DNA of 10,513 nt from Caryophanales bacterium UBA970. GTDB taxonomy: Bacteria; Bacillota_I; Bacilli_A; RFN20; CAG-826. The notes below the pieces were generated by a model. It worked only from the letters and a program-made list of their open reading frames with translations. It did no database searches and had not been told where the DNA came from. The stretch spans positions 321 to 10,833 of the forward strand of contig DBCA01000003.1 of assembly GCA_002292805.1 (NCBI GenBank). Direction: 5' to 3'. A program made the position numbers and the translations under genes. Shown piece by piece: positions 1,600-10,513 of the stretch (the first letter of the stretch is position 1; every line of letters starts with the position of its first letter).

Positions 1600-2169
1600 T
1601 TAAAGTCCTCCTAGACCAACTAATCCCATCGCGATCAACGCGAGGATGATGAGGGTGATACTTAACCCTTGAAAAGGGGCAGGAATTCGACTGGTTCTAT
1701 CCAGTCGTTCTTGGTAAATCACCATCAGCATGTTTATCATAACAAATCCAAACGGAACTGCCAATGAAGAGACAATCACATCCCATAAGCTAAGGTTACT
1801 GGTGATGAAAGACATCAAGACAAAGGTAATCACCGCATTGGTGGTCACCAACGGAAAATAAAATCCATACGCTTCATGCCATTTGGGAAAGTAGCGTTTA
1901 AGTACCCACCATTCTCCTTGACTGACTAGGGCAATGATCATCACTGAGGAAAGAAATGATAAAAAGGTTAAATCCATCGGCACCAAAACTAAATGATACA
2001 TTCCATAAAAGATGAGGCCACTGACGAGCGTGATGTCGATCATGAACATCCCAACAAAAAAAGCGACATCTAATTTTCTTAAATTTCTTAATAAGGTAAT
2101 ATCTACAAACTGAGTTAAGACGATGTTTCCACCAATGATGGCCGTGAGGATCACAGACATTACATTCAT
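1600..2169 (-). CDS. rnfA: RnfA/NqrE-like membrane subunit, lacking all cysteines
   Basis: A 189-residue, about six-span membrane protein, close to the usual RnfA/NqrE length. Family landmarks are visible: GNIVLTQF near the N-terminus (family: NNxVLxxF), FPLVTTN at 105-111 (family: LPLITTNC), and the C-terminal P-x-x-F-x-G-x-x-I segment (163-171). In Nqr and Rnf, one Cys in the first helix (V. cholerae NqrE C26) and one in the TTNC loop bind an intramembrane [2Fe-2S] cluster with the paired Cys of RnfE/NqrD. Here these positions are Thr25 and Ala112, and the whole protein has no cysteine. The start is set by an AGGAGG eight bases upstream; the ATG overlaps the rnfE stop by 4 bases. It probably forms the inverted heterodimer with RnfE, but the normal electron route through it appears broken or changed. 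Confidence 0.85.
   Translation of the reverse strand: MNVMSVILTAIIGGNIVLTQFVDITLLRNLRKLDVAFFVGMFMIDITLVSGLIFYGMYHLVLVPMDLTFLSFLSSVMIIALVSQGEWWVLKRYFPKWHEAYGFYFPLVTTNAVITFVLMSFITSNLSLWDVIVSSLAVPFGFVMINMLMVIYQERLDRTSRIPAPFQGLSITLIILALIAMGLVGLGGL
1607..1612 (-). promoter_or_regulatory. Strong ribosome binding site for the 68-residue Cys-rich gene
   Basis: A perfect AGGAGG on the minus strand lies inside the 3' end of rnfA, 8 bases before the ATG at 1596-1598. It matches the one before rnfA itself (2178-2183, same spacing). It argues that the small Cys-rich ORF is a real gene expressed with rnfA. Confidence 0.8.
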
Positions 2170-2789
2170 GCTTGCTTCCTCCTAAAATTCTGAACGAAGG
2201 CAATCCATAAAGCAGCAAGGATGAGTAAACCAATCGCTCCTTGAGGTCCCAAAAAGATAGGCATACGGTACGCCGGAGCTAAAATCGTGACATCAAATAA
2301 TGACCCAGAACCTGTAGGTGAGGCAAAGGTGATCACACCCAAACCAAGCAGATCCGAGAAGAAACCTATCGGTAACACCAACATCGCAAACCCAACGACT
2401 GAACCTAGCCCATGAAAGAAAATGTTTGGTAAGGTTTCGGTTTGAACCACGGTTTCTATGCGGGCTAAAATCAATCCACTGATGGCAATGAACGGTAAAT
2501 AGATTTCAATGCCAACAACCCAACCAGGTAAAAAGGCAACTGCGAGCATCTGAAACCACGTGGCGACACTCACCATCACCAGCATGATCAATAACCATTT
2601 ATTGTCTTCGGTAAAATACTTTTTTAAGTAATATAGAATCGTGCTTGATAACATTAAATTAAAGAATAACGCCAAGGTCATCATCCATGCACTCGTCAAG
2701 GATTGACCTCCTGCGAGCAAAATAAATAAGCCTAAACCTAAAGAAAGAATCAGGTGTTGTTGTTGATAAGCGTCTTTAAAAGCTTTCAT
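2166..2789 (-). CDS. rnfE: RnfE/NqrD-like membrane subunit, lacking all cysteines
   Basis: A 207-residue, about six-span membrane protein homologous to RnfE/NqrD. It aligns with the family at SLGLGLFILLAGG (residues 16-28; family: LLGLCPALAVT) and at YLPFIAISGLILARIET (97-113; family: IPLIVVNCLILGRAEA). The two cysteines that bind the intramembrane [2Fe-2S] cluster with RnfA are replaced by Gly20 and Gly105, the preceding Asn is Ser104, and no cysteine exists anywhere in the protein. The C-terminal region with P-x-F-L-G-P-x-G-A-I-G-L is family-like, so this is not a random hydrophobic protein. It lies 2 bases after rnfG and overlaps the rnfA start by 4 bases. The ribosome binding site is weak (GGTGG region), suggesting coupling to rnfG translation. 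Confidence 0.83.
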   Translation of the reverse strand: MKAFKDAYQQQHLILSLGLGLFILLAGGQSLTSAWMMTLALFFNLMLSSTILYYLKKYFTEDNKWLLIMLVMVSVATWFQMLAVAFLPGWVVGIEIYLPFIAISGLILARIETVVQTETLPNIFFHGLGSVVGFAMLVLPIGFFSDLLGLGVITFASPTGSGSLFDVTILAPAYRMPIFLGPQGAIGLLILAALWIAFVQNFRRKQA

Positions 2790-2791
2790 CC

Positions 2792-3337
2792 TTATCCACC
2801 CATCCTATTAATATAATCAATGCGAATGGCTTTTAACACATTCACGATGCCTCGTCTAGTCATCGTTGAACCGGTAGAGATAGCGACTAAACTCGCTGTC
2901 CAAATAGACTCTTCTTCGATACGTAGATTCTCAAGAGCGTCAGGAACATTCACCAACACATCGGCACCATAGCCTACTGATTCTCCATGGGCATCGACGG
3001 CAAATTGAGTGATGATGCCATTACGAATGCCAACACGAAACAATAAGCCGCTGGCATAACCCGTGGTGGATCCAGTATAAGCAACTGCGTTTAAATCATT
3101 GTTGAGATAAAAGGGTTTGATTTCCGTGATGCCAGCGGTGAGTAAATCTCCTGTTGGAAGGATGACATCACCGACTTCATAATCACCAAGTGAATCAAGG
3201 TTAAGTAAATCTAGGTATCGTTGATTCACTCTATTTTCTAAAATAGGAGCAGTCAAGACACTGGTGGCAAATAAAACTGAAAACGCCGTGACTGCGGTTA
3301 TCCCTAAGACCAAGATTGAAGAAGTTGTTTTCGCCAT
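2792..3337 (-). CDS. rnfG: RnfG/NqrC-like extracytoplasmic FMN-binding subunit
   Basis: A 181-residue protein with one N-terminal membrane anchor (about residues 8-30) and one FMN_bind domain outside the membrane. The domain shows HGESVGYGAD (117-126; family: H-x-E-T-P-G-L-G) and the flavinylation site STGSTMT (154-160). Thr158 is in the place of the Thr that carries covalent FMN in RnfG/NqrC, but the usual SGAT has become TGST. Length fits RnfG rather than the longer NqrC. An AGGAG six bases upstream (overlapping the rnfD stop) supports the start. In Rnf it passes electrons between the membrane cluster and RnfD; ApbE, encoded downstream, would attach the FMN. Confidence 0.85.
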   Translation of the reverse strand: MAKTTSSILVLGITAVTAFSVLFATSVLTAPILENRVNQRYLDLLNLDSLGDYEVGDVILPTGDLLTAGITEIKPFYLNNDLNAVAYTGSTTGYASGLLFRVGIRNGIITQFAVDAHGESVGYGADVLVNVPDALENLRIEEESIWTASLVAISTGSTMTRRGIVNVLKAIRIDYINRMGG

Positions 3338-3338
3338 C

Positions 3339-5156
3339 TTAATCTCCTAAGGCATTCAATAATGCTTGATGTAATCGAACAAAACTAATCGTCGCTCCAC
3401 TTTCAGTTGGATTGAAGTTTAGATAGATAGGTAACGTGGTTAACGCAATCACTTCATTTGTTTTTTGGCCAAGATAGAAATCTTGGATACCGGTTAGTTC
3501 TTCAGTGACAATTGTCAAATAAGGGTTACTGGTGGCGAGGGTTCCTGTCCAATCTAAACCAACCAACATATTATCTCTGGTATCCACATAAACCGTTGCA
3601 TACACCACATCTTCTGTATCACATTGATTACAGGCATAACTTTGAGCAGAGCCTTTGAAGATAGTGATGTTGTGAAACGCTTGTTGCATCGCTTTCAATA
3701 ATCGTGAGGTGGTGATTGACGAACCAGTGATGGTTATATTTTCAGGGATTAGTTGATCATCGATGGCCAATAATTCGTCCACATTCATGGATAAATAAGT
3801 ATGGATGATCGAAGGACCTTGACTTGCCCAGGTTGGTGCAAAACCGCTCGTAGAAATGCCAGAGATGATATCAATCTTCACAAGGTTAAATGATCGGTCA
3901 ACACCGACATCAACCACCAGATTCGTTGGGGTGTCATCCTCATCATAAAAATACGATGAATATTCACCGCGGTAAGTAGCATAGGGAACAACAACCACTT
4001 CTGAGGAAGAAGGACTTGAACTTGAGTCAGCCGTGACAATCGTCGGTAAAATCGTCACACCAATGGATAAGACCATCAAACCTGATAACAAAGCGTAGCG
4101 TTGTTTTAAGAATTGATTCGTTAATCCTACCGTGTATTTATCAATGATTGGCGAGGCTAAATTTGCCACGGCAATCCCATACACCACCCCTTCAGGAAGC
4201 GCAGTTTGTGTGCGAATGATCAACACGACAAACGCGGCAATGATCCCAATCATCGCTTTGCCATAATTGGACGTCGGTGAGGTCACCGGATCAGTGAGCA
4301 TAAACATGCCGCCAAAAAAGACAGACCCTAAACTCACAAACGTAAAGGCATACCATATTGGATTTAATCCATGGACCAAGCCAAGGAAAAAAGCTCCTAA
4401 CCAAAGGGTTGATAAAAAGAAAACGGTTGGTCGCCAATTATGAGCTTTTAATAACGTTAATATCACCCCAAGCACGACAATCAGTAGCACCGATGTTTCT
4501 CCTAATGCCCCAGAGTAATTGCCAAAGATTAACTGCCATAATGAATTCACTGGTAATCCTTCTAAGCTGTTACCAATCCAGTTTGCATAGGTGCTTGCAA
4601 ATGCGGTCGTGATGGTTTGACCCGTTGAAGTAAGGGAAGGAACATCACCAAGATAATTGCCGAGCGAACCAGGAATGAAGGCAGTCAGCTGACCACCAAA
4701 CGCAAGCCCAACAAAAATTCTGCCAAACGCAGCAGGATTGAAGATGTTCATCCCGAAACCACCAAAGGTATATTTCACAATCAACGTTGCAAATAAGTTA
4801 CCAACAATGACAACGTAATAAGGCGTACCAATGGGCAAGGTTAAGGTCATTAACACCGCGGTGACATAAGAGTAATTTTTTCTGATGCTGTGAATGATAG
4901 AAGGCAATAGTCGACCATCTTTGGCTTGATAACGTAAAGCAGCGACGAACATATCGGCAAGCAAGGTGATGAGTAAAGAGGTCACCATCATGCCAATGGC
5001 TTTGATACCATATTCGATGCCATGGGTTAACCAATGAAAGCCAGTTGAAAAACTAAATAAACCAAGTAAGCCAATCGTATAATCTCGCATGGCCCGTTTC
5101 GTTTGGGCAAGAGGATTTCGTAAATATGGACCAGCGGATGTAACAAATTGGGTCAT
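3339..5156 (-). CDS. rnfD: RnfD/NqrB-like subunit fused to two C-terminal FMN_bind-like domains
   Basis: A 605-residue protein, far longer than normal RnfD (about 310-350). Residues 1-350 form the multi-span RnfD core: FGMNIFNPAAFGR (134-146), FGNYSGALGETS (211-222), FMLTDPVTSPTS (285-296) and SPIIDKYT (335-342). The usual core FMN-Thr motif (SGAT) appears as STGQT with Thr181 as candidate. After the core come an extra membrane segment (354-373), a Ser-rich linker (378-385) and two FMN_bind-like units. Unit 1 (about 387-497) starts YRGEYSSYF and ends ITGSSITTSRLLKAMQQA, with Ser480 at the flavin position. Unit 2 (about 516-605) ends with a canonical ESGATISFVRLHQALLNAL, Thr589 being the likely FMN-Thr. 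A CNQC motif (C509, C512) separates them and holds the only cysteines. The extension should lie outside the cell membrane. The ATG overlaps the rnfC stop by 4 bases. Confidence 0.9.
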   Translation of the reverse strand: MTQFVTSAGPYLRNPLAQTKRAMRDYTIGLLGLFSFSTGFHWLTHGIEYGIKAIGMMVTSLLITLLADMFVAALRYQAKDGRLLPSIIHSIRKNYSYVTAVLMTLTLPIGTPYYVVIVGNLFATLIVKYTFGGFGMNIFNPAAFGRIFVGLAFGGQLTAFIPGSLGNYLGDVPSLTSTGQTITTAFASTYANWIGNSLEGLPVNSLWQLIFGNYSGALGETSVLLIVVLGVILTLLKAHNWRPTVFFLSTLWLGAFFLGLVHGLNPIWYAFTFVSLGSVFFGGMFMLTDPVTSPTSNYGKAMIGIIAAFVVLIIRTQTALPEGVVYGIAVANLASPIIDKYTVGLTNQFLKQRYALLSGLMVLSIGVTILPTIVTADSSSSPSSSEVVVVPYATYRGEYSSYFYDEDDTPTNLVVDVGVDRSFNLVKIDIISGISTSGFAPTWASQGPSIIHTYLSMNVDELLAIDDQLIPENITITGSSITTSRLLKAMQQAFHNITIFKGSAQSYACNQCDTEDVVYATVYVDTRDNMLVGLDWTGTLATSNPYLTIVTEELTGIQDFYLGQKTNEVIALTTLPIYLNFNPTESGATISFVRLHQALLNALGD

Positions 5157-6475
5157 GATGCTTTCACCAATTGCTTTGCCAATTCAATTCGCGTCTTGGC
5201 CTTGCCTTGACGAACCGCTTCTGTGACTTCAATCTTTGATGGGCATACATACGTGCAAATGCCACACTCCACACATTTCATCGCGTCGAGTTTAAGTAAG
5301 CGAGCGTTGTTGTGACTATCAAGGGCTAATTTTATTTCAATCGGTTGTAAGTTGGCTGGACAGTTACTCGTGCATGCCCCGCATCGTAGACATGTTTCTT
5401 CTTGTGATGAAATAGGTGCTAACACGGTATACCCACCAAAGTGTGGTTGAACGGCAAATTGATCATCTTTGACTGCTTTTGCGGACATCGGTCCGCCAAT
5501 AAAAGCTGTCACTGAATCCATCGCATAACCACCAATCGCCTTGACGACATCACTCATCAACATGCCCACTGGAACCCGAACATTGACTTCTTGATGTAAG
5601 CCTGCACCCGATAACGTTAAAATCCGTTCGGTCACGGGTTGACCTAGGATCACCAAGTCATGAAGGGCAATCGCTGAGGTAATATTAGAGACAATCACTT
5701 TTGCTTCTAAGGGAAATTTATCGTAGTCCCGATGGAGAACAGTTTTCACCAAGGTTCGTTCCCAACCCATTGGATAGACATCAGGTACGGAGCGAACTTC
5801 AATATGTGGGTACTGAGTTAAATAGGGTTGTAAAGCTTCTTTGATGGCAACTTTGGTGGACTTAAACGCAATGATGACCTTGTCAGCACCGGCAGCAATG
5901 CGAAATAATTCTGAGCCTTTCAGCACTTCTTCGGCATACACCTGGGCGGCTTGATAATCCGTGGATAAATACGGTTCACATTCCACGCCATTGATTAATA
6001 CGTATTCAACATCCTTGGCCGATTGATATTTAAAGTAAGTGGGAAACCCTGATCCACCAAGTCCGGTTAAGCCACCTATTTTCATTTGATTGATGATTTG
6101 ATCTTGGGTGGCGTTCATGCTTAAAGGTTGGATGGAGGAGGCTTTTACATTTTTACCATTATTCTCGATCACAAAATGAGGGACTGGTCGACCCACCACA
6201 GGATGATACTTATTTTCTTTTCTTACAATCGTTCCTGAGACACTTGAAAAAAAAGGCACGTGCATGTCTTTGCGCACCCCAATCACGTGGCCAATGGTAA
6301 CGTGATCACCAATTTTGGAGGTTAACTCTATCTCCACGCCATTAGGTCCAACCAAAGGAATGTAAATCCATTGTTTGGATTCAATTGGTAAATCTAAAAT
6401 GGGAGCATGCGCACTACGTTCTTTTCTTCCGTCGATATGGAGGGGTTTTAAGGCAGTAAAAACATTGATATTCAT
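5153..6475 (-). CDS. rnfC: RnfC-like NADH/FMN and 2x[4Fe-4S] subunit
   Basis: A 440-residue cytoplasmic electron-input subunit. Visible parts: an N-terminal barrel-sandwich region ending VPFFSSVSGTIV (73-84); the nucleotide/flavin-binding segment GLTGLGGSGFPT (135-146) with INGVECEPYLSTD (161-173), typical of the complex I 51-kDa-like fold; an SLBB-type region (about 280-320); and two complete [4Fe-4S] sites, C362-C365-C368-C372 and C401-C404-C407-C411 (each C-x2-C-x2-C-x3-C-P). The iron-sulphur motifs mark it as RnfC, not the cluster-free NqrA. The N-terminal GG-x-HP and QHIG patches of typical RnfC are altered. By family knowledge it accepts or donates electrons with NADH. It is the first gene of the operon; no Shine-Dalgarno precedes the ATG, although homology begins right at this Met, so the start is probably correct. 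Confidence 0.93.
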   Translation of the reverse strand: MNINVFTALKPLHIDGRKERSAHAPILDLPIESKQWIYIPLVGPNGVEIELTSKIGDHVTIGHVIGVRKDMHVPFFSSVSGTIVRKENKYHPVVGRPVPHFVIENNGKNVKASSIQPLSMNATQDQIINQMKIGGLTGLGGSGFPTYFKYQSAKDVEYVLINGVECEPYLSTDYQAAQVYAEEVLKGSELFRIAAGADKVIIAFKSTKVAIKEALQPYLTQYPHIEVRSVPDVYPMGWERTLVKTVLHRDYDKFPLEAKVIVSNITSAIALHDLVILGQPVTERILTLSGAGLHQEVNVRVPVGMLMSDVVKAIGGYAMDSVTAFIGGPMSAKAVKDDQFAVQPHFGGYTVLAPISSQEETCLRCGACTSNCPANLQPIEIKLALDSHNNARLLKLDAMKCVECGICTYVCPSKIEVTEAVRQGKAKTRIELAKQLVKAS

Positions 6476-6553: not shown

Positions 6554-7759
6554 TTAGTGGGTTCTTGACTTCCCCTTAAACTTGAGCATATGTCCCATTT
6601 TTTCTTGTTTTGTTTTCAAATAAAATTCGGTACGTTCATGATGATTCAATTGAATTTGCACGCGATCAACGATTTCAATACCAAATCCAGATAAAGATCG
6701 AATCTTGGTTGGGTTGTTGGTCATCAAGTGGACTTGAGAAATGCCTAGTTGTTTTAAGATCTGTGCACCGATGCCATATTCACGTAAATCTTCAGGAAAC
6801 CCTAATGCTAAATTCGCTTCCACAGTATCTAAGCCCATGTCTTGTAACGCATAAGCGCGGATTTTATTGATGAGACCAATCCCGCGACCTTCTTGACGCA
6901 TGTATAACAACACCCCACGACCTTCTTTTTCAATGCGTTTTAATGCTGCTTGAAGTTGTTGCCCACAGTCACAACGCTGGGAACCAAAAGCATCGCCCGT
7001 TAAACATTCAGAATGAACACGAACCAACACCGGTTCTTGTGAACTGACATCTCCCTTGACTAACGCCACATGATGTTCGCCATTGAGTTTGTTCACAAAA
7101 CCAATCATTTTGAAAACACCAAACTTGGTTGGCATGTCGGCCGTGGCAATGCGTTCGATGTAAGATTCTTGTTTGCGTCGAAAGGAAATCAATTCGGCAA
7201 TGGATAAGGTTGGAACTTCTTCTTTCAGTTGTTGAATGTCAATCCCGCTCAGCATACGACCAACACCGTCACAACTTGGCGATAAAATCCCAACAGGTTC
7301 TACTTTTCCTAACTGTGTCAAATCGATGATCGCTTCAAACGGAGAAGCCTTTTTGAGGGTGCCCCCTAATTTAACAGGATACGTTTGATAGCCAACATCA
7401 AAACGAAAATCTTCATGAGTTGAATCGGCTTTCACTAACGTTTTCATCAAACTAGTAAAAAATTGATCATTGAGGGCATACCCTAGATTTGCCGCGCCTA
7501 ATGTCACCATCGGAATCATGAATTCATTGTTCGTGTCTTTGAGTGCATTCGATACCGAAGCATATTTATCGTAACCCAACGCAATCATCACCATGCCTGG
7601 TACTGAATGAAGCAACGATAGTTTATTGGTTTCTAACGCAGACTCTGCAAATTGAACGTAGTGGCTAGGGGAATCTAATTTTTCATCATCGACAAGTAAA
7701 ACTTTTTCACCTGAGAGCAAGCGTGTGACCGCTTCTTTGACGGATAAAAATTTTAACAT
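6554..7759 (-). CDS. ribBA: RibBA-type protein: intact GTP cyclohydrolase II fused to a degenerate DHBP synthase domain
   Basis: A 401-residue protein with the two-domain RibBA layout. The C-terminal half (about 205-395) is a convincing GTP cyclohydrolase II: Zn ligands C252, C263 and C265 in [18 protein letters not shown], then [11 protein letters not shown] (286-296), [11 protein letters not shown] (311-321) and TNNPTK (347-352). It opens GTP to start riboflavin synthesis. The N-terminal half (1-200) keeps the RibB fold pattern but has lost its catalytic motifs: the RENEGD stretch after VDDE reads LDSPSH (28-33), the TTGIS region reads NLGYA (91-95), and GHTEA reads SPFEA (139-143). It should be inactive as 3,4-dihydroxy-2-butanone-4-phosphate synthase. 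The reading frame is unbroken, so the domain is kept, perhaps structurally. The ribosome binding site (AGGAAA, nine bases before the ATG) overlaps the ribD stop. Confidence 0.9.
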
Positions 7760-7770
7760 CGTTTAATTTC

Positions 7771-8514
7771 CTATTCTTGTTTAGTGGATATGATGATTAT
7801 ATCTTGACCGATTTTAAAAAGGTTGCTAAACGCAACACGAGTTGCATCTTTTAGTAAAGGAAAGCCCAAACCCTCGACTGGAGTTTTCGCTTTTTTTCCA
7901 CCGATAAGCATTGGAGAAATTTGCGCATAAATTCGATCGACATATTGTTGGCGAATAAAGCTTTCATGGACGGTCCCGCCACCTTCGACCATCACGGAAC
8001 GAATGTTTAGTTTTAACAATTGCTTCATCAACCAAGGCAAATGAATACGTTTGGATTGATATGGGTCCAACAAGACCATGACGCCCATGGATGAAAGCTG
8101 ATCCACTTTACTTTGATCCGCGACATTGGCTTTGGCAACAAGAATGGTTTTCGCTTCACTTAACTGATGAAGCATGGGTTCATCAAGGGAAATTCTTAAT
8201 TGGGAATCAAGGATAATTCGATGTGCATCTTTGCCTTGAATGGTGGTTAATCGTGTGGTGAGTAAAGGATGATCGTTCATCACCGTTTGAATGCCAACCA
8301 AAATTGCATCATGACGATGTCTTAAATGGTGGACAAAACCACGTGCTTCTTGACCAGTGATGTATTTAGAATCACCTTTTCTTGTGGCGATTTTTCCATC
8401 AAGGGACATGCCAAAACTTAAGGTAATCCAAGGCCGAGTCCATGATGCTGACTGGAGAAAAGAAGTTAATAAGTGTTCTAATAAGGTGAGTTCTTGTAAA
8501 GCGTTTGCATCCAT
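7771..8514 (-). CDS. ribD: Reductase-only RibD (5-amino-6-ribosylaminouracil-phosphate reductase domain)
   Basis: A 247-residue NADPH-dependent pyrimidine reductase of the RibD_C family. Visible motifs: ITLSFGMSLDGKIAT (30-44), GDSKYITGQEAR (47-58), H-x-L-R-x-x-x-DAILVG (63-74), HRIILDS (98-104), VMVEGGGTVHESF (174-186) and PMLIGGKKA (201-209). A full bacterial RibD is about 360 residues with an N-terminal zinc deaminase (H-A-E, P-C-x(n)-C motifs). Here only a 28-residue stub resembling the inter-domain linker precedes the reductase. The region upstream is the divergent photolyase gene, so the deaminase is not simply in another frame. The start has AGAGGGG very close to the ATG. It forms an operon with ribBA 11 bases downstream. 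The deaminase could be encoded elsewhere, or the order of steps could be reductase-first as in archaea and fungi. Confidence 0.87.
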   Translation of the reverse strand: MDANALQELTLLEHLLTSFLQSASWTRPWITLSFGMSLDGKIATRKGDSKYITGQEARGFVHHLRHRHDAILVGIQTVMNDHPLLTTRLTTIQGKDAHRIILDSQLRISLDEPMLHQLSEAKTILVAKANVADQSKVDQLSSMGVMVLLDPYQSKRIHLPWLMKQLLKLNIRSVMVEGGGTVHESFIRQQYVDRIYAQISPMLIGGKKAKTPVEGLGFPLLKDATRVAFSNLFKIGQDIIIISTKQE

Positions 8515-8550: not shown

Positions 8551-10014
8551 ATGGGAAACACTCTATTTTTATGGTCTCATCAACTTCATCCCCTTTACCT
8601 TCAAGAGGCAAAGCTCAACAAAAAAGAGGATGGGATTATCTTCATTGATTCCGATGATCAATGGACGTATTACCATTTTAACAAACAACGAATTCTCTTA
8701 CATTTATCCGCGATGCACCATGTTGTGCGTTCATACCAAAAGCTTGGTTGGAAAATCAAGGTCATTTCTGCTAAGACCATTGTCCAAGGACTATCTTCAA
8801 TGAAGAACTTGATTGTGTTTCGCCCCACCAATCATTATGAACAACGCTGGATCGAACAAAGTAAGCCAAAGAAAATCCTTGATGATCCTCTGTTTTTAAT
8901 TTCCTCTGACGCATGGGCAGACTTATTGCCCAAGGGACAATCGTGGAAACTTGATCCGTTATATCGCCTCTTTCGCAAACAATTTTCCATACTCATGGAT
9001 GGGGATCAACCCGTTGGTGGAAAGTTTTCTTTTGATACAGAGAATCGTAAATCACCGACCAATGATGTTAGCTTTACACCAAGCCAATGGTTTGTCATGG
9101 ATGAGCTCACCACCAAACTTAAGGCTCAGGTGGAAAAGCGATTTGATGATCATCCCGGAGCGTTGAATGATTTTAGTTATCCTGTCACCCGTGAAGATGC
9201 ATTGGCGTTACTCAAACATTTTTTAATTCACCGTCTTCCCACCTTTGGGGATTATCAAGATGCGATGCTGACCAACCAACCTTGGATGTCTCATTCTTTG
9301 ATTGCCAGTAGTTTGAACCTTGGTTTACTCAGTCCAAAAGAAGTCATTGAAGGCGCAGAAACCATGTATCAAGAAGGCAAAGCTCCTTTAGCAGCAACCG
9401 AAGGATTTATTCGTCAAATTCTTGGATGGAGAGAATATGTTCGAGGTATTTATCTTGTCTTGGGTGAAGATTATTTGACGTCAAACCATTTCAACCATGA
9501 TCGACCACTACCTGAATTTTATTACACAGGGAAGACCGACATGAACTGTTTAAAGACCACGGTTGAAGAAACCATTGCCCATGGGTATAACCATCACATC
9601 CAACGCTTGATGGTCTTAAGTAATTACGCCAACCTCGCTGAGGTCAATCCTCAATCTGTTAATCGGTGGTTTAACGAGATGTATATTGATTCATCCGAAT
9701 GGGTTGTCGCGGCCAATGTCTTGGGCATGGGACTACATGCCGACGGTGGGAAGATGGCAACCAAGCCCTATATTTCTTCCGGAGCCTACATCAACAAGAT
9801 GTCAGACTATTGTGATGATTGTGCTTTTCAAGTCACCTTAAAAACTGGAAAGAAAGCTTGCCCTTTCAATAGTCTCTATTGGCATTACTTAGCAACCAAA
9901 AAAGATAGTTTCCAAGCCAATCCCCGGATGACGATGATGCTGAGTGTTTGGAAAAAAATGGACCCCAAGGATCAATTTGATATTCTTCAAAGAGCCAAGG
10001 AGTTATTAACTTAA
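8551..10014 (+). CDS. phrB: FeS-type bacterial cryptochrome / (6-4) photolyase (PhrB family)
   Basis: A 487-residue light-dependent DNA repair enzyme of the FeS-BCP group. The N-terminal alpha/beta domain begins TLFLWSHQLHP and contains HFNKQRILLHLSAMHH (42-57), as in the DPRP/PhrB group. The C-terminal helical FAD domain contains ATEGFIRQILGWREYVRG (282-299), NHHIQRLMVLSNYANL (347-362) and NRWFNEMYIDSSEWV (371-385). All four [4Fe-4S] cysteines are present: C333, C421, C424, C437, each offset by exactly 17 from those I recall for Agrobacterium PhrB (350, 438, 441, 454). The His pair H348-H349 and R352 show the same offset, matching its (6-4) repair residues. PhrB uses FAD plus 6,7-dimethyl-8-ribityllumazine as antenna, a link to the riboflavin genes next door. 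The next photolyase gene starts immediately after its stop. Confidence 0.93.
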   Translation: MGNTLFLWSHQLHPLYLQEAKLNKKEDGIIFIDSDDQWTYYHFNKQRILLHLSAMHHVVRSYQKLGWKIKVISAKTIVQGLSSMKNLIVFRPTNHYEQRWIEQSKPKKILDDPLFLISSDAWADLLPKGQSWKLDPLYRLFRKQFSILMDGDQPVGGKFSFDTENRKSPTNDVSFTPSQWFVMDELTTKLKAQVEKRFDDHPGALNDFSYPVTREDALALLKHFLIHRLPTFGDYQDAMLTNQPWMSHSLIASSLNLGLLSPKEVIEGAETMYQEGKAPLAATEGFIRQILGWREYVRGIYLVLGEDYLTSNHFNHDRPLPEFYYTGKTDMNCLKTTVEETIAHGYNHHIQRLMVLSNYANLAEVNPQSVNRWFNEMYIDSSEWVVAANVLGMGLHADGGKMATKPYISSGAYINKMSDYCDDCAFQVTLKTGKKACPFNSLYWHYLATKKDSFQANPRMTMMLSVWKKMDPKDQFDILQRAKELLT

Positions 10015-10513
10015 ATGAACAAACCACAAGTGTCGGTCGTCTTCTTTCAACATGATTTACGAATCGATGATCAATTGAGTTTAGCCAAGGCAATCAAACT
10101 AGGTTTACCGGTCATTGGGGTTTATCTTTATCCTGCCAATGATGGTAAACCCACGACTTGGGGTTTTAATCCAAGCGGTCCTTTCCGGCAACAATTTTTA
10201 TGGGAAAGTTTATTTGATTTAAAAAAGAATTTACTACGCTTGAACATCCCCATGTATGTTTGGATGGAAAATCATCTTCAACCTGAGATGTTTTCCTCTT
10301 TCGAAGTTGTTCAATTGTTTGCCGCTGTCGAACCAGGCGAAGAAGAAAAACTTCGATTTCAACATTTGGTTAAGACATTGGGCAATCCACCTTTGACGTT
10401 GGTGCATGATAAACCTTTATGCTCGCCATTAACTTATCCTTGGTTATTGACTAACTTACCTCAACGGTTCACCGATGCTCGCATCGAGATTGAAAAAAAT
10501 ATCCGGATTGATG
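10015..10513 (+). CDS. Second photolyase/cryptochrome, DASH-like, 5' part (runs off the right edge)
   Basis: The first 166 residues of a DNA photolyase N-terminal (antenna-binding) domain. Visible: VVFFQHDLRIDDQLSLAKA at the start (family: W-F-R-x-D-L-R-x-x-D-N-x-x-L-x-x-A), VIGVYLYP, then FRQQFLWESLFDLKKNL (R-x-x-F-L-x-x-S-L-x-D-L), a segment with GEEEKLR, and LPQRFTDARIEIE near the end. The last resembles the LPxxFTxFRKxVE stretch typical of cryptochrome-DASH proteins, so DASH is the best guess, but the FAD domain is outside the window. The canonical Asn after D-D is Gln here. The ATG follows the phrB stop with no gap, and AAGGAG within the phrB end, 12 bases upstream, could serve as ribosome binding site. 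Together the two genes form a light-repair operon. Confidence 0.85.
   Translation, partial: MNKPQVSVVFFQHDLRIDDQLSLAKAIKLGLPVIGVYLYPANDGKPTTWGFNPSGPFRQQFLWESLFDLKKNLLRLNIPMYVWMENHLQPEMFSSFEVVQLFAAVEPGEEEKLRFQHLVKTLGNPPLTLVHDKPLCSPLTYPWLLTNLPQRFTDARIEIEKNIRID

Follow-up and report, generated by a model that had tools for sequence, protein, structure and literature searches.

The Locus

The window studied here is the whole of a 10,513-nucleotide stretch of DNA from Caryophanales bacterium UBA970 (assembly GCA_002292805.1, contig DBCA01000003.1). Read along its minus strand, it carries genes for a RibD-like protein, RibBA, RnfC, RnfD, RnfG, RnfE, RnfA, a protein of 68 amino acids, a NusG_II protein, a Gx-type protein, and the start of ApbE (Table 1).

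Table 1. Genes of the flavin and Rnf region of the window, with the basis of each assignment.
Feature	Position	Strand	Length	Basis
ApbE flavin transferase, truncated at the window end	3-440	minus		similarity to L001 ApbE
Gx-type small membrane protein (Hpre_diP_synt_I family)	437-943	minus		PF07456, 94.4 bits
NusG_II-domain protein	940-1323	minus		PF07009, 57.6 bits
Single-helix protein with 4 Cys, in the rnfB slot of relatives	1392-1598	minus	68 aa	synteny
RnfA homologue without Cys	1600-2169	minus	189 aa	PF02508
RnfE homologue without Cys	2166-2789	minus	207 aa	PF02508
RnfG-like protein, single FMN-binding domain, motif TGST	2792-3337	minus		PF04205
RnfD (residues 1-345) with 260-aa tail	3339-5156	minus		PF03116, 181 bits
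RnfC, FMN/NADH domain and 8 cluster Cys	5153-6475	minus		TIGR01945
RibBA-type flavin biosynthesis protein	6554-7759	minus		NF006803, TIGR00505
RibD-type reductase-like protein (flavin biosynthesis)	7771-8514	minus		reading of translation only

RnfC scores 295.8 bits against TIGR01945, above the cut-off of 245.95, and the RnfG-like protein scores 20.0 bits against PF04205, slightly under the cut-off of 22. The RibBA-type protein is above the cut-off of TIGR00505 (ribA) and reaches 376 bits against NF006803, under the equivalog cut-off. The truncated ApbE matches the full-length ApbE of a related locus, L001, with 176 bits; the latter, in turn, scores 121.7 bits against PF02424. A preliminary description of this DNA had asked whether relatives without the cysteines discussed below share this operon layout. 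Two of them, L001 and L002, do have the gene order of the window as far as their contigs reach. The NusG_II gene is also present in the Rnf operons of relatives.

Immediately after apbE, L001 carries a lipoprotein-like gene (L001:4165-4944) with a TTGAT motif. Its product matches no Pfam family above cut-off and is a candidate flavinylated carrier. The plus strand of the window (8551-10512) has a photolyase-related (DPRP) gene and, after it, a photolyase-like frame (reading of translation only); both point away from the flavin and Rnf genes.

RnfA and RnfE Without Cysteine

The preliminary description claimed that neither RnfA nor RnfE contains a single cysteine. This is true of both translations. 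It also took the two proteins to be genuine members of the RnfA/RnfE family, and their scores against PF02508 (73.1 bits for RnfA and 70.4 bits for RnfE, with a cut-off of 23.8) bear this out. Against the subfamily models TIGR01943 and TIGR01948, neither reaches the cut-off.

Four residues had been named as standing where canonical proteins have the ligands of the [2Fe-2S] cluster: Thr25 (codon 2095-2097) and Ala112 (1834-1836) in RnfA, and Gly20 (2730-2732) and Gly105 (2475-2477) in RnfE. The codons are correct. The positions were compared by aligning family profiles to solved Rnf/Nqr chains, over the full length of RnfA and over residues ~19-153 of RnfE. Here, Ala112 takes the place of the second RnfA ligand and, against the NqrD/RnfE chains, Gly105 that of the second RnfE ligand. 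Thr25 takes the place of the first RnfA ligand in one alignment; in the profile alignment, that ligand falls on a one-residue deletion adjoining Thr25. For the first RnfE ligand the assignment was two residues off, and the residue aligned with the NqrD/RnfE chains is Phe22, not Gly20.

Other pairs of this kind were sought among close relatives. None of 37 RnfA relatives (P0001-P0037, including two fragments) and none of 89 RnfE relatives has a Cys at a ligand position that it covers. The RnfE rows number 91, six of them fragments; these are the window and 90 matches, of which one (P0040) is identical to the window RnfE. None has a Cys at columns 20-22 or 104-106. Stray cysteines do occur at non-ligand sites, one each in the RnfA relatives P0026 and P0027 and one each in three of the 91 RnfE rows. 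The same search delivered two canonical RnfA proteins, P0038 and P0039, that keep both cysteines. A sequencing artefact, which the preliminary description had held out as a possible undoing of its claim, is therefore excluded, because the relatives also lack the ligand cysteines. The loss belongs to a conserved family.

That family is stable, since several residues are invariant across many rows. Asp23 of RnfA (codon 2101-2103), which adjoins the former ligand, is found in 36/36 full-length Cys-less rows; the two canonical RnfA rows have Gly. The RnfA alignment (A1) contains the two canonical rows, and the fragments P0036 and P0037 were left out of it. In RnfE, His12 and Phe22 are each present in 85/85 rows covering the position, and Gly105 in 91/91. 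A smaller RnfE alignment (A2) is made up of the window row and 27 of the 90 matches, 28 rows in total.

An AF2 model of RnfA matches the RnfA/NqrE chains of Rnf and Nqr, with a mean pLDDT of only 63 and with residues 12-30 below 50. Placing Asp23 from this model was rejected, as that region is too poor even though the RnfA/NqrE fold is recovered. Each of two genomes of the window clade (G001 and G002) has just one PF02508 pair, the Cys-less one. A search of viral contigs found no relative.

Loss of the Ligands and Loss of RnfB

How often are the ligands lost, and in what company? A search of 95 relatives of G001 found PF02508 in 56 genomes. The loci of these genomes, together with the window and 11 further picked loci (some of them top matches, some not), make 71 loci. 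Two were left out (L127, which is partial, and L150, where no Rnf genes were found), giving 69 with a readable A/E pair. A phylum-wide search with A1 supplied nine loci; no count of Cys-less pairs is based on it, because A1 includes two canonical rows and only the best matches were listed.

All four ligand cysteines are present at 60 of the 69 loci, and in 60/60 of these RnfB (57 loci) or NqrF (three loci) adjoins. The RnfB that follows RnfA at the 57 loci is short, about 90-136 aa and mostly ~105. Fewer than four ligand cysteines are found at the remaining nine, and RnfB or NqrF adjoins in 0/9. At the window, L001, and L002, 0/4 are present, and the 68-aa protein sits in the RnfB slot. L037, L038, and L039 keep 3/4, the second RnfA ligand being replaced by Ser or Ala. 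L043, L044, and L045 have lost both RnfA ligands and the first RnfE ligand; for the second RnfE ligand of L043 and L044, a two-residue shift could still align a Cys. Fisher's test of ligands against RnfB/NqrF gives p 1.8e-11, a value that ignores kinship; counted as evolutionary events, there are two co-losses. RnfA of the second lineage, that of L043-L045, retrieved four proteins from the protein collection, one of them identical to the query.

The two events are separated in the trees. In a tree of 60 RnfC sequences, the window, L002, and L038 form one clade (100/98), whose sister is L107, a locus with RnfB and all four cysteines (100/99). L043-L045 are placed elsewhere, and the starred branches of the tree force two changes; 0% of 200 bootstrap trees need a single change. 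A tree of RnfD (a quick method, 63 rows) unites the window with L002, L038, and L039 in a single group (100) and also needs two changes. An AU test on this tree rejects a single clade of lost loci (p 5e-7). The nearest canonical rows in the RnfD tree are L118 and L102, not L107. In this tree and in that of RnfC, the branch leading to L134 is long. The ligand cysteines and RnfB have thus been lost together at least twice, independently.

The preliminary description had all four cysteines disappearing at once. Kin just outside the window clade do not support this. These keep 3/4 cysteines and already lack RnfB, so the loss looks stepwise. For the window line, the simplest order is that RnfB was lost along with one Cys, and that all four were lost thereafter.

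Uneven Conservation Within the Complex

Conserved columns were defined on canonical rows only, with one threshold (>=95%) for all four proteins. Lost loci deviate at 0-2/45 columns in RnfC (6 loci) and at 0-1/29 in RnfD (7 loci); they deviate at 13-22/29 in RnfA and at 8-20/26 in RnfE (9 loci each). Among canonical rows, the median deviation is 0 in all four proteins and the maxima are 21 (RnfC), 8 (RnfD), 3 (RnfA), and 3 (RnfE); an individual canonical row may thus depart far from the rest, by up to 21/45 in RnfC and 8/29 in RnfD. At 90% columns, the lost loci deviate at 1-7/60 in RnfC, 0-3/40 in RnfD, 17-28/37 in RnfA, and 16-27/40 in RnfE. Neither of the two columns at which the window RnfC deviates (2/45) is a Cys.

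Pairwise distances give the same picture. Over 1431 canonical pairs, the ratio of the (A+E) distance to the (C+D) distance has its median at 0.76 and never exceeds 1.14. It is 2.09 for window-L002, 2.25 for window-L038, and 2.36 for L002-L038 and, in the second lineage, 1.81 for L043-L044, 1.45 for L045-L043, and 1.43 for L045-L044. Divergence of RnfA and RnfE in the lost clades is 2-3 times above expectation.

Such acceleration, with so many conserved columns changed, is what one would see were RnfA and RnfE decaying remnants heading for loss. We consider this very unlikely, given the 36 full-length RnfA rows and the large RnfE family with their many invariant residues, and given that the window, L001, and L002 retain the genes and their order. 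Because the two proteins are retained with invariant residues of their own, they must do something.

RnfD and Its Tail

The membrane subunit RnfD keeps the residues by which it is expected to hold flavin. Asn140 and Asp289 are present in 66/66 rows, and Thr181, in the covalent-FMN motif, in 61/66 overall and in all 7 lost rows. By alignment offset, Asn140 and Asp289 of the window protein match Asn123 and Asp249 of Acetobacterium woodii RnfD. The latter two coordinate riboflavin, and ferredoxin-dependent NAD+ reduction is abolished when they are changed (PMC11889175). The window RnfD scores 147.4 against TIGR01946, under the cut-off of 207.05. At E 0.001, the 605-aa protein matches PF03116 only, with no PF00175 NAD-binding domain.

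The tail of the window RnfD has two repeats, ending in the flavinylation-type motifs TGSS and SGAT. It scores 15 bits against PF04205 (cut-off 22), and its motifs point to a tail of the FMN-binding type. Many canonical relatives also have an RnfD tail, and the fusion is therefore older than the loss of the cysteines and RnfB. A model of the tail, built on two sequences, was not used; it is poor, has no match at E 0.001, and resembles IscU and NqrC (3lwx, E 0.03) weakly. The motif of RnfG is TGST or TGAT in the window family; no clear [ST]GA[ST] motif is found in RnfG of the 3-Cys loci. Between the tail repeats lies a CxxC pair, CNQC in the window and CDEC in L002. The tail of a 996-aa RnfD (L138:10974-13964) has four flavinylation-type motifs.

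The 68-Residue Protein in the RnfB Slot

RnfB is absent from the loci of the window, L001, and L002 and from the genomes G001-G005, where TIGR01944 has 0 matches. The same model gives 65.1 and 63.6 bits, to the N-terminal part, in the canonical genomes G012 and G062 (cut-off 68.7). In G081, G092, and G095, genomes of the second lost lineage, it gives <=32.5 bits, to a ferredoxin-like part away from the operon. RnfB at L101-L159 is itself mostly ~105 aa, with one helix and one 4-Cys FeS domain, and lacks the long ferredoxin-like region known from the textbook protein.

What stands in the slot is the 68-aa gene, separated from rnfA by one base in the window and located at the same position in L001 and L002. 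All four of its cysteines are kept in 3/3 sequences. It might be proposed that this protein replaces RnfB in minimal form and, with the Cys-less RnfA and RnfE, still carries electrons across the membrane on the A/E side, the cluster ligands having moved to another subunit. Its exact position and its conserved cysteines speak for this. However, a profile comparison built on the three sequences gives a probability of only 3-6% for homology to RnfB, and charged residues past the helix suggest cysteines that face the cytosol rather than the middle of the membrane. Further, the gene was not found at the 3-Cys loci or at the G081 locus. A replacement of this kind seems unlikely. Against the FeoB_associated family the protein scores 10.5 bits, with a cut-off of 27.

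Metabolic Setting

The POR_N domain of pyruvate:ferredoxin oxidoreductase (PFOR) is found in 0/5 genomes of the window clade, which are of 0.7-1.0 Mb, MAG-sized, and may be incomplete. It is found in 16/18 canonical genomes (the exceptions being G012 and G024) and in 3/3 of the second lost lineage (G081, G092, and G095). Pyruvate dehydrogenase E1 scores >300 bits only in G002, G003, and G004 (3/5 of the window clade) and in the canonical G019; G008 has a partial match of 66.6 bits. Because POR_N is absent and pyruvate dehydrogenase E1 is present in 3/5, pyruvate oxidation in the window clade looks, on its gene content, to be NADH-linked and not ferredoxin-linked.

Here, loss of the ligands and of RnfB accompanies loss of PFOR, which suggests that the pump is trimmed once the supply of ferredoxin disappears. 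Scarcity of ferredoxin is not the general cause, however, because the second lost lineage keeps PFOR in 3/3.

A Proposed Path for Electrons

In the A. woodii Rnf (PMC11889175; review PMC12174285), electrons from ferredoxin pass from RnfB to the A/E cluster, to the FMN of RnfG, to the flavins of RnfD, to RnfC, and then to NAD+. Changing cysteines of the B8 cluster or of the A/E cluster abolishes ferredoxin:NAD+ activity (PMC11889175; PMC12174285). Taking away RnfB and the A/E cluster leaves the RnfD-RnfC half which, run in reverse, would lead from NADH to extracytosolic FMN.

This is the explanation that we favor, with some confidence: the window encodes an Rnf-derived complex that has dispensed with its ferredoxin arm (RnfB and the A/E [2Fe-2S] cluster) and would use the NADH arm alone, one way, outwards. 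NADH would reduce the FMN of RnfC. From there, electrons would pass through the two [4Fe-4S] clusters of RnfC to the riboflavin and covalent FMN of RnfD, and it is at RnfD that they would cross the membrane. They would leave by FMN domains in the RnfD tail, by RnfG, and perhaps by a downstream lipoprotein, to reach an acceptor outside. RnfA and RnfE would serve as structural or ion-handling partners and would transport no electrons. The losses, their co-occurrence in two lineages, and the conservation of RnfC and RnfD are read directly from the sequences, as is the lack of a PFOR match in the window clade; from them we infer the outward direction, the outside acceptor, the flavins in the tail, and the role of RnfA and RnfE.

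The context in the operon (ApbE, the FMN-type tail of RnfD, and the flavin genes) supports this explanation. Counting against it are the four-Cys protein in the RnfB slot, possibly a working electron carrier, and the retention of RnfA and RnfE with invariant residues of their own. The PFOR of the second lost lineage, the sub-threshold Pfam score of the RnfD tail, the want of a clear RnfG motif at the 3-Cys loci, and the possible incompleteness of the kin genomes (with POR_N lacking in the canonical G012 and G024 too) weigh on the same side. Cytochrome bd, as an oxygen outlet, is found in 0/26 genomes. The preliminary description had suggested that electrons might take another route, from flavin to flavin. 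That part survives, with RnfD as the route, as the best explanation; what finds no support is the simultaneous loss of all four cysteines. In these uncultured bacteria with small genomes, the complex is probably an exporter of electrons in one direction and not a textbook ion pump.

What RnfA and RnfE Might Do

Another proposal is that RnfA and RnfE form a cluster-free cation path or antiporter in which the charge of Asp23 replaces the redox-switched cluster, whether or not it is coupled to the electrons moving through RnfD. The distribution of Asp23 in RnfA suggests this, as does the invariant His12 of RnfE, where canonical loci mostly have Asn. The equivalents of the R67-E115 ion pair of A. 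woodii are largely maintained, as Lys64 (K 76, R 4, Q 8, H 1, gap 2; n=91) and Glu112 (E 87, D 4; n=91). Further, in A. woodii, Na+ movement is assigned to A/E beside the cluster, not to RnfD (PMC11889175). On the other side, Asp23 lies within the part of the RnfA model that has pLDDT <50, the 3-Cys loci have Gly in its place, and the faster divergence of RnfA and RnfE fits a mere scaffold as well. We regard such a path as improbable.

Rather doubtful, too, is the larger idea that would join this to the electron path: a split pump in which electrons move via RnfC-RnfD while RnfA and RnfE have been rebuilt around the invariant Asp as a cluster-free cation gate. Were it true, the electron and ion paths would be uncoupled, or newly coupled, in one living respiratory pump.

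Our preferred reading remains outward electron flow through RnfC and RnfD. The variant matters because the ion-pumping step of Rnf/Nqr is debated, being placed either in A/E with their cluster or in D/B. A natural complex that lacks the cluster ligands and the donor subunit, while keeping RnfC, RnfD, RnfA, and RnfE, could be used to test whether RnfC and RnfD suffice to send electrons outwards. It could also show whether pumping persists without the cluster, and what RnfA and RnfE then do.

Comparison With Known Systems

The window shares with Rnf (RnfABCDGE) the order RnfC, D, G, E, A. Its genes for NusG_II, Gx, and ApbE proteins also have counterparts in canonical relatives, L107 among them. 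It differs in having neither RnfB nor the A/E ligands, and in the two FMN-type repeats of its RnfD tail. Among the features that define Rnf, it has RnfC (with its NADH/FMN domain and two [4Fe-4S] sites), the flavin residues of RnfD, and the PF02508 pair; the four A/E [2Fe-2S] Cys ligands and RnfB are missing. Judged by sequence, this is a real, conserved, and new variant of Rnf with at least two separate origins. Among the open-access literature matches listed, which cover few subscription journals, none reports a Cys-less RnfA/RnfE or an Rnf without RnfB.

The NQR/RNF-like system (Meheust et al., 2021, PMC8238504; PMC11334425) resembles the proposed complex in having a single path from NAD(P)H to the outside, which runs through an NqrB/RnfD homologue and then an FMN subunit on the extracytosolic side. 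That system consists of two subunits, an NqrF-type NAD-binding domain being fused to RnfD, and its RnfD has no flavinylation site (PMC8238504). The window, in contrast, has RnfC as its NADH subunit, keeps Thr181 of RnfD, and retains RnfA and RnfE. In their counts, Meheust et al. accepted RNF only where RnfB was present (PMC8238504). The Cys-less variant would therefore escape that definition.

Flavin-based extracellular electron transfer of the Listeria type also has ApbE and flavinylation-type extracytosolic proteins, which here are putative carriers by motif, and L001 has its lipoprotein downstream. Ndh2 and demethylmenaquinone genes are typical of that system. The window differs in that its entry subunit is derived from Rnf.

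With Na+-NQR, the window shares a homologous membrane core. According to one proposal, NQR derived from an Rnf that lost rnfB (PMC4014512). Na+-NQR keeps the D/E cluster and has, in NqrA, a redox-inactive relative of RnfC; the window has silenced the opposite half. The window operon has no NqrF, and models of NqrA are far under cut-off both for the window RnfC and in G001-G005. Besides their 3-Cys loci, the genomes of L037-L039 have an Nqr-like operon (L040-L042) in the order NqrB-C-D-E-F, where none of the four cysteines is missing; NqrA (TIGR01936) was not found in these genomes. Upstream of the Nqr-like operon, L040 has a 518-aa gene that is regulator-like on reading.
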